From positions 310,001 through 374,000 of the forward strand of contig NZ_VAWB01000002.1 in NCBI RefSeq assembly GCF_006148925.1: 64,000 nucleotides of DNA, read 5' to 3'. The stretch's first letter is position 1, and each line of letters starts with the position of its first letter. This document shows, piece after piece, positions 20,599-26,066 of this stretch. Made by a program: the position numbers and the translations under genes. The notes beneath the pieces are model-generated. The model was given only the letters and a program-made list of their open reading frames with translations. It searched no databases and was not told where the DNA came from. Source of the stretch: Hyunsoonleella aestuarii (lineage in GTDB: Bacteria; Bacteroidota; Bacteroidia; Flavobacteriales; Flavobacteriaceae).

Positions 20599-21714
20599 AT
20601 GAAGAATTTTATATTCATTGTCATACTGCAATTTTCAATTTTCGGATGTAATCCAAAAAAAGAAAAGCAAGAAATTGCTGCACCTTCAAAAGTCGAAATT
20701 GTAGAAAAACCTATTCTTAATTTAGAACAAGCCAATAAATTAGCGGCCTTACCATTACACTGTATTAACACAGAATATCCGAACAGGCTATCCCAGACTT
20801 TAGGCGGTAATGAGGATTTAAAACCACCTACAACCTTGCATCCCGCTTTTTATGGTTGTTTCGATTGGCATTCTTCTGTGCATGGTCATTGGAGTTTGGT
20901 AAGCCTACTAAAATCCTTTCCTAATCTTGAAAATGCAGAGGAAATAAAACAGCGTTTACTGAGCAATATTTCAAAAGAAAATATTGATGCGGAAGTAGCC
21001 TATTTTCAAGGCAAACATAATAAATCTTACGAGCGTACCTATGGATGGGCGTGGTTACTAAAATTAGCAGAAGAACTTCATACCTGGGATGATTTGGTAG
21101 CAAGAGAATTGGAAATGAATATGCAACCTTTAACCGATTTACTGGTTGAAAAATATATTGCCTTTCTTCCTAAATTGAACTACCCACAGCGGGTCGGTAC
21201 GCATACTAATACTGCTTTTGGTGTATCGTTCGCGTATGATTATGCAGAAACTGTCAATAATGAAGATCTTAAAAATGTCATTCGGGAGCGTGCCTTATAC
21301 TTTTACCAAAATGATAAAAACTGCCCGATAACATGGGAGCCGAGTGGTAGTGATTTTTTGTCCCCGTGTTTAGAAGAAGGCTCTTTAATGAAGCGCTTGT
21401 TATCTAAAGAAGACTTTAGAGAATGGATTAATACCTTTTTGCCTCAATTAAAAGATCCAAACTACAATCTTGAAGTAGGGATAGTTTCTGATAGAACCGA
21501 TGGACAATTGGTACATTTAGATGGTGTAAACTTTTCAAGGGCTTGGGATCTATATAAAATAGCAGAAGATTTACCAGAGTATAATCATCTTAAAAACTTA
21601 GCTAACAAGCATATCAACTATTCACTACCTAGTATTTTTGGCGACAGTTACGAAGGTGGACACTGGCTAGGTAGCTTTGCTATTTATGCGCTTAATGCAT
21701 CGCAGAATGATTAA
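20599..21714 (+). CDS. DUF2891 family lipoprotein
   Basis: The protein is 371 residues. The N-terminal hydrophobic segment ends in FSIFGC, a likely lipobox, so it is probably lipid-anchored and exported. HPAFYGCFDWHSSVHGHWSL near residue 76 (the hallmark of DUF2891), RTYGWAWLLKLAEEL near residue 144, TNTAFGVSF and WEPSGSDFLSPCLEE follow; the histidine- and tryptophan-rich pattern and helical content suggest an alpha/alpha-barrel, possibly a hydrolase or lyase, but no activity is established. Its last codons overlap the start of the transporter gene, linking it to the 5-oxoproline module downstream. The function is unknown to me. Confidence 0.8.
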   Translation: MKNFIFIVILQFSIFGCNPKKEKQEIAAPSKVEIVEKPILNLEQANKLAALPLHCINTEYPNRLSQTLGGNEDLKPPTTLHPAFYGCFDWHSSVHGHWSLVSLLKSFPNLENAEEIKQRLLSNISKENIDAEVAYFQGKHNKSYERTYGWAWLLKLAEELHTWDDLVARELEMNMQPLTDLLVEKYIAFLPKLNYPQRVGTHTNTAFGVSFAYDYAETVNNEDLKNVIRERALYFYQNDKNCPITWEPSGSDFLSPCLEEGSLMKRLLSKEDFREWINTFLPQLKDPNYNLEVGIVSDRTDGQLVHLDGVNFSRAWDLYKIAEDLPEYNHLKNLANKHINYSLPSIFGDSYEGGHWLGSFAIYALNASQND

Positions 21715-22939
21715 AAAATGGTTTCGTAATATTGGACCTGGCCCTTTAATAGCAGCTGCTTTTATAGGCCCTGGTACGGTTACAGTTTGTACGCTTGCTG
21801 GTGTTGGATTTGGGTTTGCATTGCTTTGGGCTATGACGCTATCTATAATAGCTACTATTGTTTTACAAGAAATGGCGGCAAGATTAGGCATTATTTCTCA
21901 AAAGGGTCTTGCAGAAATTTTAAGATCAGAAATAAAGCATCCTATATTAAAAGGGTTTGCCATTGTTTTAACACTTTCAGCAATCGTAATAGGTAATGCT
22001 GCCTACGAAGCCGGTAATATCTCTGGTGGTGTTTTAGGATTAGAAACTATAGTTGGTCATCAGTTTATTGCATTTGGTGATTTTTCATTGAATTTATTAA
22101 GTCTTACCATAGGATGCATTGCATTCATTTTATTGTATATAGGAAATTATAAAGTACTCGAAAGGGTTTTGGTTTTTCTGGTGATTTTAATGAGTTTATC
22201 ATTTTTGTTTTCAGCAATAATAACTAAACCGAATCTTTTCAAGGTTTTTGAAGGTGCCTTTATCCCTAATTTTCCAAAGGAAAGTTTATTAACTATTTTG
22301 GGTTTAATTGGTACTACGGTTGTACCTTATAACTTGTTTTTGCATGCTTCATTAGTAAAAGAGAAATGGAAAGGTGAGAGCGACTTACAATATGCTAGAA
22401 AAGATACGTTTATAGCCATTATTTTAGGTGGCTTAGTTTCTATGTGTATTATAGTATCTGCAGCTTCCATTGATTCGTTCCAAATTAATAATGCTTCTGA
22501 TTTGGCTAAAGGCTTAGAACCAGTTTTTGGAAGTTTTGCTAAATACTTTTTGTCAATCGGGTTGTTCGCAGCTGGTATTACAAGTGCCATAACAGCTCCT
22601 TTGGCAGCAGCCTATGTAGCAAGTGGTTGTTTAGGGTGGAAAACAAATTTGCGTTCAAGAAAGTTTAGAGCAGTTTGGATATTTATTTTAGTTTTAGGGG
22701 TGTTGTTTTCATCGCTCAATATCAAACCCATTACTATTATCAAGTTTGCACAAATAGCTAATGGTATTCTTTTACCTATTATTGCTGGATTTTTGCTATG
22801 GGTTATGAATAAGGAAAGTGCACTCGGAGTTTATAAGAATAGTTTAAAACAAAACTTATTAGGATTTGTTATCTTAGTTATCAGTTTATTATTATCCATT
22901 GTGGCGCTTAATAAAGTGCTTCAACTTAATTTATTTTAG
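21707..22939 (+). CDS. Nramp-fold transporter lacking metal-binding residues (YcsG-like)
   Basis: A start at ATG 21707 (MIKKWFRNIGPGPL) is preferred over the upstream ATG at 21677; it overlaps the DUF2891 stop by 8 bases. About eleven hydrophobic helices are present. The Nramp scaffold is clear: IGPGPLIAAAFIGPGTV in TM1 and GTTVVPYNLFLHASL in TM6. The metal ligands are missing: the TM1 DPGN motif reads GPGT and the TM6 MPH motif reads VPY. The transporter is therefore unlikely to carry Mn or Fe. Its stop overlaps the pxpA GTG start. In Bacillus subtilis the Nramp-like ycsG lies in the ycsF-kipIA operon, the same association, so an organic substrate such as 5-oxoproline is a fair inference. 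Confidence 0.85.
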   Translation: MIKKWFRNIGPGPLIAAAFIGPGTVTVCTLAGVGFGFALLWAMTLSIIATIVLQEMAARLGIISQKGLAEILRSEIKHPILKGFAIVLTLSAIVIGNAAYEAGNISGGVLGLETIVGHQFIAFGDFSLNLLSLTIGCIAFILLYIGNYKVLERVLVFLVILMSLSFLFSAIITKPNLFKVFEGAFIPNFPKESLLTILGLIGTTVVPYNLFLHASLVKEKWKGESDLQYARKDTFIAIILGGLVSMCIIVSAASIDSFQINNASDLAKGLEPVFGSFAKYFLSIGLFAAGITSAITAPLAAAYVASGCLGWKTNLRSRKFRAVWIFILVLGVLFSSLNIKPITIIKFAQIANGILLPIIAGFLLWVMNKESALGVYKNSLKQNLLGFVILVISLLLSIVALNKVLQLNLF

Positions 22940-23679
22940 TGAATAATCTTATAGTTGATATTAATGCTGATGTAGGAGAGGGCATAGGCAATGAATCGGA
23001 ATTGCTACCATTAGTTTCTTCGTGTAACATTGCATGCGGTGGTCATGCAGGGGATAATGAGACAATGGTTAAAGTTATTAAAGAAGCTAAGAAAAATGGC
23101 GTTAAAATTGGGGCGCACCCTTCATTTCCAGATAAAGAGGGTTTTGGAAGAAAGCCAATGGATATTTCTTGTGCAGCTTTATTTAAATCGCTAGAAGATC
23201 AAACAAATCGACTATTAAACCACTTGAAACATGCAAACGCAGCGTTGCACCATATTAAACCTCATGGAGCACTTTATAATTTGGCTGCAAAAGATGAAAG
23301 AACGGCAAATGTAATTGTAGAACTTATGAAGTGTTTTGCCTTACCTATTTATCTTTATGTACCCTATGGTTCGGTAATTGCTGTAATGGCTCAAAAGAAC
23401 AATATCCCCATTATTTATGAAGCCTTTGCCGATAGAAATTACAATGATGATTTAAGTCTTGTTTCACGTGAGTATTCGAACGCTATTATTTCAGATTCAG
23501 AAGATATGTTTAATCATGTTTATGGGATGATAAAAAATAAAAAGGTAAAAACAGTTAACGGTGCCCATATTCATATTGAAGCACATACGTTTTGTGTACA
23601 TGGGGATAATCCTGAGGCTATAAAACTGTTGAAAAGTTTGAGATTACGATTATTAGAAAATAATATTCAAATTCTTTAA
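22939..23679 (+). CDS. pxpA: 5-oxoprolinase subunit A (LamB/YcsF family)
   Basis: This 246-residue protein begins at a GTG that overlaps the transporter stop. VDINADVGEGIGNE near residue 6, SSCNIACGGHAGD near residue 27, GAHPSFPDKEGFGRK near residue 57, and HIKPHGALYN near residue 105 are the conserved LamB/YcsF segments. PxpA works with PxpB and PxpC to open 5-oxoproline to glutamate with ATP. The three subunit genes follow each other directly here (pxpA to pxpB gap 1 base). The complex clears pyroglutamate formed by spontaneous cyclisation of glutamine or by glutaminyl cyclase, which is itself encoded at 60.4 kb. Confidence 0.93.
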   Translation: MNNLIVDINADVGEGIGNESELLPLVSSCNIACGGHAGDNETMVKVIKEAKKNGVKIGAHPSFPDKEGFGRKPMDISCAALFKSLEDQTNRLLNHLKHANAALHHIKPHGALYNLAAKDERTANVIVELMKCFALPIYLYVPYGSVIAVMAQKNNIPIIYEAFADRNYNDDLSLVSREYSNAIISDSEDMFNHVYGMIKNKKVKTVNGAHIHIEAHTFCVHGDNPEAIKLLKSLRLRLLENNIQIL

Positions 23680-23680
23680 T

Positions 23681-24415
23681 ATGTCGAATTATGAATTGTC
23701 GTTCAAACGTTTTGGTGAATCCGCTATTCTTATAGAATGGCCTCAGATAATTCATAAGGATGTATTAAATAATATCTTGAATTTTAAGCAGTCACTACTT
23801 GAATATTATAAAGATTATCAAGTTTATTTAAACCATGCATATTGCTCGTTATTAATCAATTATGAGACATACGATTTCAAATATTATAATGAAGTTAAAG
23901 TTTTAAAAGATCTATATAATTCAAATAAGGATAATTTATCAAAGTCTGCGTTGTTATGGAAAGTTCCTGTTTGTTATGACAGTTCATTTGGAATTGACTT
24001 GGAGGAACTTTCTGAAGCTAAAAAGCTTAATGTAGACGATATTATTAACCTGCATACCAAAGTGGATTACTTAATTTATTTCGTTGGTTTTTTACCTGGA
24101 TTTTTATATTTAGGAGGGCTGGAAGAAGTACTTCATACACCTAGAAGGGCAACACCTAGATTAAACATTGCAAAAGGAGCTGTAGCTATTGGTGGAAAAC
24201 AAACAGGGGTTTATCCTAGCCAAAGTCCTGGAGGATGGCATATAATTGGTAATTCACCAATAAATTTTTTTAATATCGAACATGAAAAGCCTTGTTTTGC
24301 CCAGGCTGGAGATTTTATTAAATTCTATTCCGTGACAACTGAAAAGTTTAGAGAAATAAAAACGTTAGTAGAAGCTGGTGTTTACCAATTAGAAAGTGAG
24401 ATAATCAATGATTAA
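23681..24415 (+). CDS. pxpB: 5-oxoprolinase subunit B (KipI-like)
   Basis: This 244-residue protein belongs to the allophanate-hydrolase-subunit-1/KipI family. It shows GIDLEELSEAKKLNVDDIINLHTK (in part) near residue 107, VGFLPGFLYLGGL near residue 138, PRRATPRLNIAKGAVAIGG (in part) near residue 157, and QTGVYPSQSPGGWHIIG near residue 172, the conserved core. It acts with PxpC as the ATP-dependent half of 5-oxoprolinase; some homologues (KipI in Bacillus) also inhibit a sporulation kinase, which is irrelevant here. It overlaps pxpC by 8 bases. Confidence 0.92.
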   Translation: MSNYELSFKRFGESAILIEWPQIIHKDVLNNILNFKQSLLEYYKDYQVYLNHAYCSLLINYETYDFKYYNEVKVLKDLYNSNKDNLSKSALLWKVPVCYDSSFGIDLEELSEAKKLNVDDIINLHTKVDYLIYFVGFLPGFLYLGGLEEVLHTPRRATPRLNIAKGAVAIGGKQTGVYPSQSPGGWHIIGNSPINFFNIEHEKPCFAQAGDFIKFYSVTTEKFREIKTLVEAGVYQLESEIIND

Positions 24416-25259
24416 AGTATTAAAACCTGGATTTTATTCAAGTATCCAAGATATAGGTCGTATTGGTGGTCAAGCTTTCGGCGTTCCGGTTTCGGGGACT
24501 ATGGACGCTTATGCAGGTAAGCTGGCTAATGCATTATTGGGTAATAAAAGTGAAGTGGCGGTTTTAGAAATAACCATGACTGGTGCAACTTTTGAATTTA
24601 ATTGTTCTACTTTAATTTGTATCACTGGAGCAGATATGAATCCTAATCTAAATAAAATTCAAATCAGAAACAATCAAGTTGTTCATATTAAAGAAGGAGA
24701 TGTATTGAGCTTTGGGAAATTGAATAGAGGCTTTAGGGCTTATTTGGCCGTTTTTGGAGGTTTTAAGGCAAAAAGAGTAATGGGTAGTTATAGCATGTAT
24801 AGGGGCATAACAGAGCAGACAAATATTAAGAAAGGAGATGCCTTAGATATAAATGTAATAAGTCCAACAACATATAATACTAATGCTTCATTAAGAGTTA
24901 AAAGTGATTATATTAATGATATTACTATCGAGGTTTTTAAAGGGCCAGAATTTCAATTACTCACTGAAATTCAGCAGAATAAATTATTAAATTCAGAATT
25001 TACAATTTCAAAAAACAATAATAGAATGGCATATCAACTAAACGATAAGCTTGTAAATAATTTGAAACCTATAATAACATCGCCTGTTCTTCCTGGAACA
25101 GTTCAACTGACACCTTCTGGGACTCTAATTATTTTAATGCGTGATTGCCAAACAACAGGAGGTTATCCAAGAGTGCTACAGTTAAAAAATATGGCTATTA
25201 ATGTTTTATCACAGAAATTTACTGGGAATAATATTAGGTTTAAGCTAATACAGTTTTAG
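24408..25259 (+). CDS. pxpC: 5-oxoprolinase subunit C (KipA-like)
   Basis: This 283-residue protein belongs to the biotin-dependent carboxyltransferase-like / allophanate-hydrolase-subunit-2 family. SIQDIGRIGGQAFGVPVSG near residue 11, GKLANALLGNKSEVAVLEIT (in part) near residue 36, CITGADMNPNLN near residue 70, AYLAVFGGF near residue 112, and ITSPVLPGTVQLTPSGTLI (in part) near residue 221 are conserved. It overlaps pxpB by 8 bases and ends the pxpABC set. A 57-base gap leads to a lipoprotein gene that may be part of the same transcript. Confidence 0.92.
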   Translation: MIKVLKPGFYSSIQDIGRIGGQAFGVPVSGTMDAYAGKLANALLGNKSEVAVLEITMTGATFEFNCSTLICITGADMNPNLNKIQIRNNQVVHIKEGDVLSFGKLNRGFRAYLAVFGGFKAKRVMGSYSMYRGITEQTNIKKGDALDINVISPTTYNTNASLRVKSDYINDITIEVFKGPEFQLLTEIQQNKLLNSEFTISKNNNRMAYQLNDKLVNNLKPIITSPVLPGTVQLTPSGTLIILMRDCQTTGGYPRVLQLKNMAINVLSQKFTGNNIRFKLIQF

Positions 25260-25316: not shown

Positions 25317-26066
25317 ATGCGATTAAGTCTTTACATTTTGTTCAGTTTATTTTTTCTATGGTCTTGTAATTTGGAGAAACCTGTGGATGTGGAATTTATT
25401 GTAAATAAGTCTATTGAGGTTACAGGTGGCGAAATAATTAAATCCTCCGATATAACATTCGATTTCAGAAATAGAACTTATAAGGCCATTCGAGACAACG
25501 GTCAATTTACTTATATAAGAATGACCTTAAAAGATGGAGATTCTGTTTTTGATATTTTAAGCAATTCTGGATATGATCGTTTTATAAACGATAGTCTAGT
25601 AAAGGTTGCAGATTCGATGATTCCGAGATATTCTGCCTCAGTAAATTCGGTGCATTATTTTTCTTTATTGCCCTATAGTTTGAACGATCCTGCGGTAAAT
25701 AAAACATATATCGGAAAATCAACAATAAATAATTCAGAGTATTATAAAGTTAAAGTAACCTTTGATCAAGAAGGTGGAGGGCAAGATTATGAAGACATTT
25801 TTGTCTATTGGATAAATTCAAAATCTTTTAAAACAGACTATTTAGCTTACTCTTATCTTGAATCGAATGATGAGATTGGACTTCGTTTTCGTGAAGCATT
25901 TAATGAGCGTTATTTGGAGGGTATCCGTTTTATAGATTATAATAATTATAAACCTAAAAAAAAGGGCGTTTTTTTAAAAGACTTAGATAAGTTTCTTAAA
26001 AATAATGAGTTAAAATTACTTTCTAAAATTGAACTCGAAAATATTGTAGTTAAACCTCTTAATTAA
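25317..26066 (+). CDS. DUF6503-like lipoprotein
   Basis: This 249-residue protein starts with a signal ending in FLWSC, a likely lipobox. VEFIVNKSIEVTGGE near residue 26 and NRTYKAIRDNGQFTYIRM near residue 51 resemble a family of conserved Bacteroidota outer-membrane lipoproteins labelled DUF6503, with a beta-rich body and FRFREAFNERYLEGIRF-type closing segment. No catalytic motif was recognised. It lies 57 bases after pxpC and overlaps the convergent histidine phosphatase gene by 8 bases at the 3' ends. The function is unknown. Confidence 0.65.
   Translation: MRLSLYILFSLFFLWSCNLEKPVDVEFIVNKSIEVTGGEIIKSSDITFDFRNRTYKAIRDNGQFTYIRMTLKDGDSVFDILSNSGYDRFINDSLVKVADSMIPRYSASVNSVHYFSLLPYSLNDPAVNKTYIGKSTINNSEYYKVKVTFDQEGGGQDYEDIFVYWINSKSFKTDYLAYSYLESNDEIGLRFREAFNERYLEGIRFIDYNNYKPKKKGVFLKDLDKFLKNNELKLLSKIELENIVVKPLN

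Follow-up and report, generated by a model that had tools for sequence, protein, structure and literature searches.

What can a transporter of the Nramp family carry once the residues that hold the metal have been replaced and its gene stands among those for 5-oxoprolinase? The question is raised by a 64,000-nucleotide stretch of Hyunsoonleella aestuarii DNA (contig NZ_VAWB01000002.1, positions 310,001 to 374,000), hereafter the window, in which a gene for an Nramp-related protein overlaps pxpA, a 5-oxoprolinase gene. A sequence-only reading of this DNA had proposed that an organic substrate, perhaps 5-oxoproline, fits the protein better than a metal, and our analysis supports this choice through gene linkage and co-occurrence with two non-homologous types of 5-oxoprolinase. 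The protein has the Nramp fold, the metal ligands are lost throughout its clade, its gene lies in an operon with pxpABC, and the clade is tied genome-wide to two unrelated 5-oxoprolinase types. Judging from sequence comparison and genomic context, it is very probably a secondary transporter of the Nramp (LeuT) fold and a putative importer of 5-oxoproline. Published studies are cited by PubMed Central number.

Fold and metal-site residues of the transporter

The open reading frame (ORF) shows no inner stop in its translation. Its sole Pfam family is Nramp (PF01566, 294.7 bits against a cut-off of 29.8, residues 29-379), which places it in the Nramp/SLC11 superfamily, and it scores 81.4 with the NCBI model NF037982 (cut-off 50). 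In an alignment with DraNramp, BfraNramp and EleNRMT, transmembrane helix (TM) 1 reads AAFIGPGTVT and TM6 reads GTTVVPYNLFL, with the DPGN and MPH of DraNramp in the same columns. The earlier claim that the metal ligands are gone, GPGT standing for DPGN and VPY for MPH, was thus borne out, and it extends to TM3, in which the glutamate is replaced by N104. The metal-site residues D, N, M and H and the TM3 E correspond to G, T, V, Y and N in the window protein, all five positions being neutral. Canonical Nramp/MntH proteins (DraNramp, BfraNramp) share its fold and the breaks of TM1 and TM6, whereas their DPGN, MPH and TM3 glutamate are replaced, so that it is not a canonical Nramp.

The scaffold around the site is conserved, as had been supposed. 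An AlphaFold2 (AF2) model (36 rows) reached a predicted local distance difference test (pLDDT) of 85.3 and a predicted template modelling score (pTM) of 0.86, with TM1 interrupted at residues 19-21 and TM6 at 205-206, i.e. at the places where Nramps hold the metal. The best solved match was DraNramp (6c3i, Z 48.6, root-mean-square deviation (rmsd) 2.2 over 371 residues), followed by EleNRMT (Z 45.8) and, after the Nramps, by other LeuT-fold carriers, including the amino-acid carriers AgcS (30.5), AdiC (29.4) and ApcT (29.0). The integrative model 'YCSG-FABL' (9a52, chain A) was also among the matches, at 22 % identity.

Clades and conservation of the site

From 203 loci, 199 Nramp-like ORFs were read. 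We classed 160 of them, duplicates and the window's own copies included, as clade I, the clade of the window protein (FIGPGT, GTTVVPYN, YExGN), the class being assigned partly by motif and otherwise by score. Nine belong to clade II, the YcsG/MumT type (GPGFLTQ, GGTVGGYI, FNIGN), seven are canonical with DPGN/MPH, and the remainder are of other ligand-free types. In a 72-row tree, clade I (36 rows) forms one side of a branch supported at 100/99; clade II (9 rows) and the canonical proteins (9 rows) are each supported at 100/100. The residues G21, P22, G23, N104 and Y208 are common to all 45 rows of clades I and II (G21-G23 in 44, as one clade I row does not extend that far), and the canonical rows carry D, P, G, E and H at these positions. 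Because the motif is common to the whole clade, it is not a matter of chance. L180 is short at its N-terminus, TM1 lying beyond what was read. The called start of L047 and L124 lies after TM1, and the upstream reading gives GPGT in both; their frame extends into TM1 before the first ATG, GTG or TTG, and translation may begin at an unusual codon.

Identity of the window protein to the nine clade II rows is 19.0-21.6 %, and with GPGT and GTTVVPY it stands outside clade II (100/100). An approximately unbiased (AU) test did not reject clades I and II as one clade (p 0.355). Two independent recruitments of the two clades to 5-oxoprolinase had been expected; the idea was dropped and convergence is not claimed, because the test allows a single origin. 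One scan of viral contigs gave no relative.

Linkage to 5-oxoprolinase-type genes

In the window, the genes for a DUF2891 protein, the transporter, PxpA, PxpB and PxpC are co-directional, and the transporter thus belongs to an operon with pxpABC. Its stop codon TAG (22937-22939) shares 1 nt with the GTG start of pxpA (22939), the overlap that had been pointed out before, to which we add an 8-nt overlap between the end of the DUF2891 gene and the transporter start. A gap of 1 nt separates pxpA from pxpB, and pxpB overlaps pxpC by 8 nt.

Related loci were fetched from genome contigs using only the transporter motif; of 594, the best 80 were taken, each with 60 % identity or more to the window protein. 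Flanks of 1.5 kb (L001-L034, L120-L149), 5-6 kb or 7 kb were taken, ending at contig ends, so that all counts of linked genes are lower bounds. PxpA was found within the flank in 75 of these best 80 loci. As a motif count within clade I would be circular, we counted all linked Nramp-like ORFs whatever their class: DPG and MPH are absent from all 142 ORFs whose loci also hold PxpA or HyuA (duplicates counted), and all seven ORFs with DPGN and MPH are unlinked. Linked homologues with intact motifs, which the sequence-only reading had named as contrary evidence, were sought and not encountered among these ORFs. Merging of sequences with the same last 350 residues left 150 distinct clade I sequences, with PxpA nearby in 118 (the window's included), HyuA in 8 and neither in 24. 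Outside clades I and II, none of 26 Nramp-family sequences lies near PxpA or HyuA. PxpA is nearby in eight of the nine clade II ORFs, three of these (L150, L151, L157) by construction, because their loci were found through PxpA; five of the six clade II loci found by the transporter itself (L198-L203) are linked.

The second type of partner was found at greater distance. Clade I members of haloarchaea (23 records, 45-51 % identical), which are annotated as divalent metal transporters, stand directly before HyuA-HyuB in seven of nine regions fetched; L038 is without that arrangement and L209 stops at the record edge. A racemase-like gene follows HyuB in four of the seven HyuAB regions, and the two tested by Pfam are Amdase and Asp/Glu/hydantoin racemase. 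The best match of Haloferax HyuA/HyuB, under the cut-off, was to caprolactamase subunits. On haloarchaeal plasmids (L205, L206, L208, L210), the order clade I Nramp, HyuA, HyuB, racemase-like gene is fixed, mostly behind a gene for a CopG-family regulator; in L205 a CBS-domain gene takes this place. More distant Bacteroidota members (L162, L168, L171-L174) stand beside HyuA/HyuB as well. In two of these loci, L168 and L172, the A and B parts of the linked Hyu enzyme form one chain, and that of L168, of 1279 residues, matches the N-methylhydantoinase 7hk5 (1288 residues) and the 5-oxoprolinase/hydantoinase pair 6yra.

Some loci differ in their surroundings. In a Pseudoalteromonas record the clade I gene is unlinked, and PxpA is encoded at another place on that replicon. 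A Bacteroidota subclade (L161, L163, L164, L166, L167, L169), reading FVGPGTVLT with TYN or AYN in TM6, lies away from Pxp and Hyu genes, and all six genomes carry PxpA or Hydantoinase_A elsewhere. In L191 (genome G128, contig C3), PxpA has beside it a clade I fragment of 49 % identity that is interrupted by an in-frame stop and is probably a decaying copy. The Nramp ORF at 4860-7331 of L173 reaches 823 residues, its N-terminal half being without a Pfam match; in its sister locus L174 a separate gene for DctM of the tripartite ATP-independent periplasmic (TRAP) transporters adjoins the transporter gene upstream. TRAP binding proteins of Bordetella have been solved with 5-oxoproline (PMC13274462). 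Three leads from neighbouring genes were given up: the M28 gene beside L172 as a glutaminyl cyclase (its best solved matches are aminopeptidases), proline or hydroxyproline use for the unlinked L158 group (Pfam neighbours: alpha/beta hydrolase, RmuC, TrkA/TrkH) and the pyruvate-ferredoxin-oxidoreductase-type genes beside L161, which gave no lead.

Co-occurrence across genomes

The co-occurrence was assessed in 247 genomes of the window's phylum. Clade membership was taken from identities and scores among the matches listed, to which all counts of this section refer. When clade I is present, PxpA or Hydantoinase_A was found in 54 of 54 genomes, versus 41 of 193 when it is absent (p 1.0e-28, kinship ignored). 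The near subclade goes with PxpA (33/33, versus 18/214 in its absence; Fisher 2.5e-28, kinship ignored) and is not enriched for Hydantoinase_A (0/33). The farther subclade (21 genomes) has PxpA in 6 and Hydantoinase_A in 15, and taken alone it is not enriched for PxpA (6/21 versus 45/226, p 0.25). Within the window's own family, the contrast by hand counts is 10 of 10 genomes with the clade versus 2 of 17 without (p 7.8e-6). Four genomes with an unlinked copy (G053, G076, G111, G194) still carry PxpA elsewhere. G128, with its broken piece beside PxpA, was excluded from the 54 genomes. The PxpA match of G106 (below cut-off) was left out, as were the Hydantoinase_A matches of G005, G130 and G182 (over the cut-off, but narrowly or with a partial match) and of G017, G053 and G118 (under it); with these weak matches counted, the background of 41 of 193 would become 44 at most.

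Operon features and the DUF2891 protein

Table 1. Features of the transporter gene and its operon in the window
Feature	Position	Strand	Evidence
DUF2891 protein, 371 aa, lipoprotein-like N-terminus, first gene of the unit	20599..21714	+	PF11199 450 bits
Nramp-related transporter without metal ligands, putative 5-oxoproline importer, 410 aa	21707..22939	+	Pfam, motifs, tree, AF2, fold match
TM1 break, G21-P22-G23-T24 replacing DPGN	21767..21778	+	Alignment, AF2 model
TM3 N104 replacing the canonical glutamate	22016..22018	+	Asn in 36/36 clade I and 9/9 clade II rows; Glu in 9/9 canonical rows
TM6 break, V206-P207-Y208-N209 replacing M-P-H-N	22322..22333	+	Y208 in 36/36 clade I and 9/9 clade II rows
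pxpA, 5-oxoprolinase subunit (LamB/YcsF)	22939..23679	+	PF03746 273 bits; NCBIfam PxpA NF003814 254.4 bits, cut-off 226
pxpB, 5-oxoprolinase subunit	23681..24415	+	TIGR00370 162.1 bits, cut-off 145.55
pxpC, 5-oxoprolinase subunit	24408..25259	+	PF02626 (CT_A_B) 240 bits; NCBIfam PxpC and TIGR00724 match below their cut-offs

DUF2891 genes were found in 52 of the 80 loci from genome contigs (best 80 of 594), in 49 of them upstream of the transporter within 235 nt. They are not limited to clade I loci, being present in 22 of the 247 genomes, several of which are without clade I. C17 is invariant in 31 rows and, by eye, the N-terminus of the window's DUF2891 protein and its relatives resembles a lipoprotein signal; this lipoprotein-like N-terminus with its invariant cysteine suggests that the protein is periplasmic. 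The solved member Cj0554 of Campylobacter jejuni (8ieu) matches the window model with Z 38.2 and rmsd 2.4 over 326 residues at 37 % identity; the next fold matches are sugar 2-epimerases and unsaturated glucuronyl hydrolases (Z 15-17). In C. jejuni, cj0552-4 encodes DUF969, DUF979 and DUF2891, and a cj0552-4 mutant lost growth on 5-oxoproline in what its authors call a preliminary experiment (PMC12795558). The DUF969/DUF979 pair, a putative 5-oxoproline transporter tied, like the window protein, to DUF2891 and 5-oxoproline use, is described as two other protein families (PMC12795558). DUF2891 is thus tied to 5-oxoproline in two settings, the window-type operon and cj0552-4, each with a different putative transporter, and is a candidate for a new part in the use of this compound.

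A DUF6503 gene (25317-26066) follows pxpC on the same strand. For RNA control (a Mn riboswitch or other), Rfam at gathering scores gave only the small signal recognition particle (SRP) RNA in the window, and promoter-like sites in the window were not above shuffles (34 versus 35.5).

Comparison with known systems

Nramp-family genes likewise stand beside pxpABC in the case of PxpT (Corynebacterium glutamicum cg1142), YcsG (Bacillus subtilis) and PxpG (Clostridioides difficile), which were compared through a proxy, Bacillus badius L202, and not from their own sequences. This proxy (GPGF/GGTVGGY) is 21.6 % identical to the window protein and falls in clade II, the tree parting the two clades at 100/99 and 100/100. 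Its gene order is pxpA, Nramp, putative hydro-lyase, which we take to be the ycsF-ycsG-ycsI order of B. subtilis. The sequence-only reading had drawn the parallel with Bacillus ycsG: the operon parallel stands, whereas orthology does not, because the YcsG/MumT type, seen through this proxy, is a different clade at about 20 % identity. C. glutamicum PxpT also seems to belong to clade II, by its identity to YcsG.

MumT of Acinetobacter baumannii resembles the window protein in being an Nramp-family protein without DPGN/MPH, with GPG in TM1, Asn in TM3, Tyr in TM6 and a LamB/YcsF gene in its operon; it differs in belonging to clade II and in having been published as a Mn importer tied to 'urea carboxylase' (PMC5050338). 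In A. baumannii locus L150 (4719-10923), the transporter is followed by genes for LamB/YcsF (PxpA), a D-glutamate cyclase family protein (PF07286), a CT_C_D + CT_A_B fusion (PxpB-PxpC type) and biotin carboxylase. By this predicted gene content, the mum operon, named by its authors for manganese and urea metabolism, is of 5-oxoprolinase type in its make-up; their Mn data stand. Two replicons filed as plasmids, NZ_CP104448.1 (A. baumannii, 4.09 Mb) and NZ_CP084075.1 (Fusobacterium, 2.11 Mb), are chromosome-sized.

EleNRMT and the NRMT-like Mg/Mn transporters share the Nramp fold without DPGN/MPH (27.4 % identity to the window protein), but they keep the TM1 Asp (DAGG) and the TM3 Glu, have a Trp in TM6 and form a separate clade. 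The window protein has neither DAGG nor APW, and clade I is one side of the 100/99 branch. 'Nramp-related' proteins without DPGN/MPH have been described in a preprint, in which a 'G-motif 3' group holds MntG and the groups beyond G-motif 3 and NRMT-like are uncharacterised (PMC12873925).

Proposed mechanism and alternative explanations

We propose that the transporter would bring 5-oxoproline (pyroglutamate, in its L or D form) into the cytoplasm, where PxpABC, encoded directly downstream, would open the lactam with ATP to give glutamate. In the APC superfamily, the glycine-rich TM1 break of amino-acid transporters holds the substrate carboxylate. By analogy of position, the neutral GPGT, TM3 Asn and TM6 Tyr at the broken helices TM1 and TM6 may hold the carboxylate and the lactam of 5-oxoproline, bound at the TM1/TM3/TM6 site during alternating access. 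The DUF2891 lipoprotein probably serves as a partner in the periplasm, where it would make or convert the substrate; this is the weakest step of the proposal. A lactam substrate, and 5-oxoproline in particular, is favoured by the linkage and co-occurrence with two non-homologous 5-oxoprolinase types. The closest physiological support comes from C. glutamicum, in which growth on 5-oxoproline requires pxpT and complementation was achieved, a metal role not being excluded by the authors (PMC13274462), and from B. subtilis, in which deletion of ycsG stops the use of 5-oxoproline as nitrogen source (Niehaus 2017, as cited in PMC13274462).

Several observations weigh against importing 5-oxoproline as the function. 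The best biochemical parallels, PxpT and YcsG, seem to belong to another clade. YcsG has been named MntG, a Mn importer: cells over-expressing it contained more Mn, and the mntH mntA ycsG triple mutant could be made only if the cells carried ycsG a second time; the same study raised a possible polar effect in the older ycsG work (PMC10448178). A mumT mutant contained less cell Mn and was complemented (PMC5050338). A DUF2891 gene is listed among iron-dependent genes of Porphyromonas gingivalis (1.5, 0.099; PMC10434189). Neither enzyme is nearby in the 24 distinct clade I sequences counted above, and the genome counts and p-values ignore shared descent, save for the one within-family contrast. 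The site is not wholly specific: an unlinked GPGS group (3 rows) has GPG and N104 without the Tyr, and one other row (L187) has a TM6 Tyr. Finally, the Hyu-linked members could equally well carry hydantoin or some other five-ring lactam.

We hold it improbable that the protein imports Mn or another divalent metal through a non-canonical site, the operon link arising, as has been proposed for YcsG/MntG and MumT, because the lactamase or nitrogen metabolism needs metal. Measured metal transport had been named beforehand as evidence against an organic substrate, and there are indeed reports of Mn transport by YcsG and MumT, each encoded in an operon that has PxpA-type genes; they concern the other clade and whole cells (PMC10448178, PMC5050338). 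EleNRMT moves metals without DPGN/MPH (PMC12873925), yet it retains TM1 Asp and TM3 Glu, whereas the five site positions of the window protein are all neutral. The three Nramp-family genes above the Pfam cut-off in the window's genome are all without DPGN/MPH (a fourth match, under the cut-off, lies outside this reading), so a canonical Nramp is missing among them. However, this genome has a FeoB (about 700 aa) and, some 2 kb away on the same strand, a ZnuA-type binding protein, an ATP-binding cassette (ABC) ATPase and a DtxR-type repressor, and metal uptake can therefore be served otherwise. The clade, moreover, follows 5-oxoprolinase-type enzymes, and C. glutamicum without pxpT grew like the wild type on glucose but not on 5-oxoproline (PMC13274462). 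The two further Nramp-family proteins of this genome (L002 1411-2775 and L003 1414-2676) read GTGS and GVSH in TM1; by eye, their neighbours include one 6-phosphogluconate-dehydrogenase-like and one acyl-CoA-carboxylase-like ORF.

There is also a small chance that the substrate is a related lactam or cyclic acid (hydantoin, a carbamoyl amino acid or proline-like acids), with 5-oxoproline one of several or a minor one. The caprolactamase-like best match of Haloferax HyuA/HyuB, below cut-off as it is, and the racemase-like genes of the haloarchaeal HyuAB regions point that way, against which PxpA of 5-oxoprolinase, above its NCBIfam cut-off in the window, adjoins 118 distinct clade sequences. 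That the link to pxpABC is a historical accident without functional tie, i.e. operon hitch-hiking, would agree with the clade I sequences that have no nearby enzyme; we consider it very hard to credit, for the clade pairs with two non-homologous enzymes, and the four genomes with an unlinked copy keep PxpA at another place. The import of 5-oxoproline thus stays our preferred function for the window protein.

Conclusions

Ligand loss in 'Nramp-related' proteins and the 5-oxoproline idea for YcsG and PxpT were already in print. What is new is a separate clade, sharing about 20 % identity with the YcsG/MumT type, whose partners are two unrelated lactamases and DUF2891. In the excerpts of open-access literature searched, neither this double partnership (PxpABC and HyuAB/OPLAH) nor the tie to DUF2891 was found; no paper was found there joining 'Nramp' with 'hydantoinase', nor 'YcsG' with 'FabL'. 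A wider proposition, for and against which we see about equal weight, is that Nramp-related proteins whose site combines a TM1 GPG with a TM3 Asn and a TM6 Tyr are substrate-switched importers of 5-oxoproline or lactam acids, their partner enzymes in bacteria and haloarchaea being PxpABC, HyuAB or the single-chain OPLAH type. On this view the Mn effects published for YcsG/MntG and MumT would be indirect, and DUF2891 would add an enzyme of 5-oxoproline use that has so far escaped notice.

Published accounts of the YcsG type conflict, one making it a Mn importer and the other a 5-oxoproline importer. The clade of the window protein adds independent evidence that 5-oxoproline enzymes, mutually non-homologous ones among them, accompany the scaffold without ligands. 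If the proposed function is true, many database names would be wrong, such as those resting on a match to NF037982 or the haloarchaeal annotation as divalent metal transporters, and the family would show clearly how, within one fold, a site for metal has become one for an organic acid.

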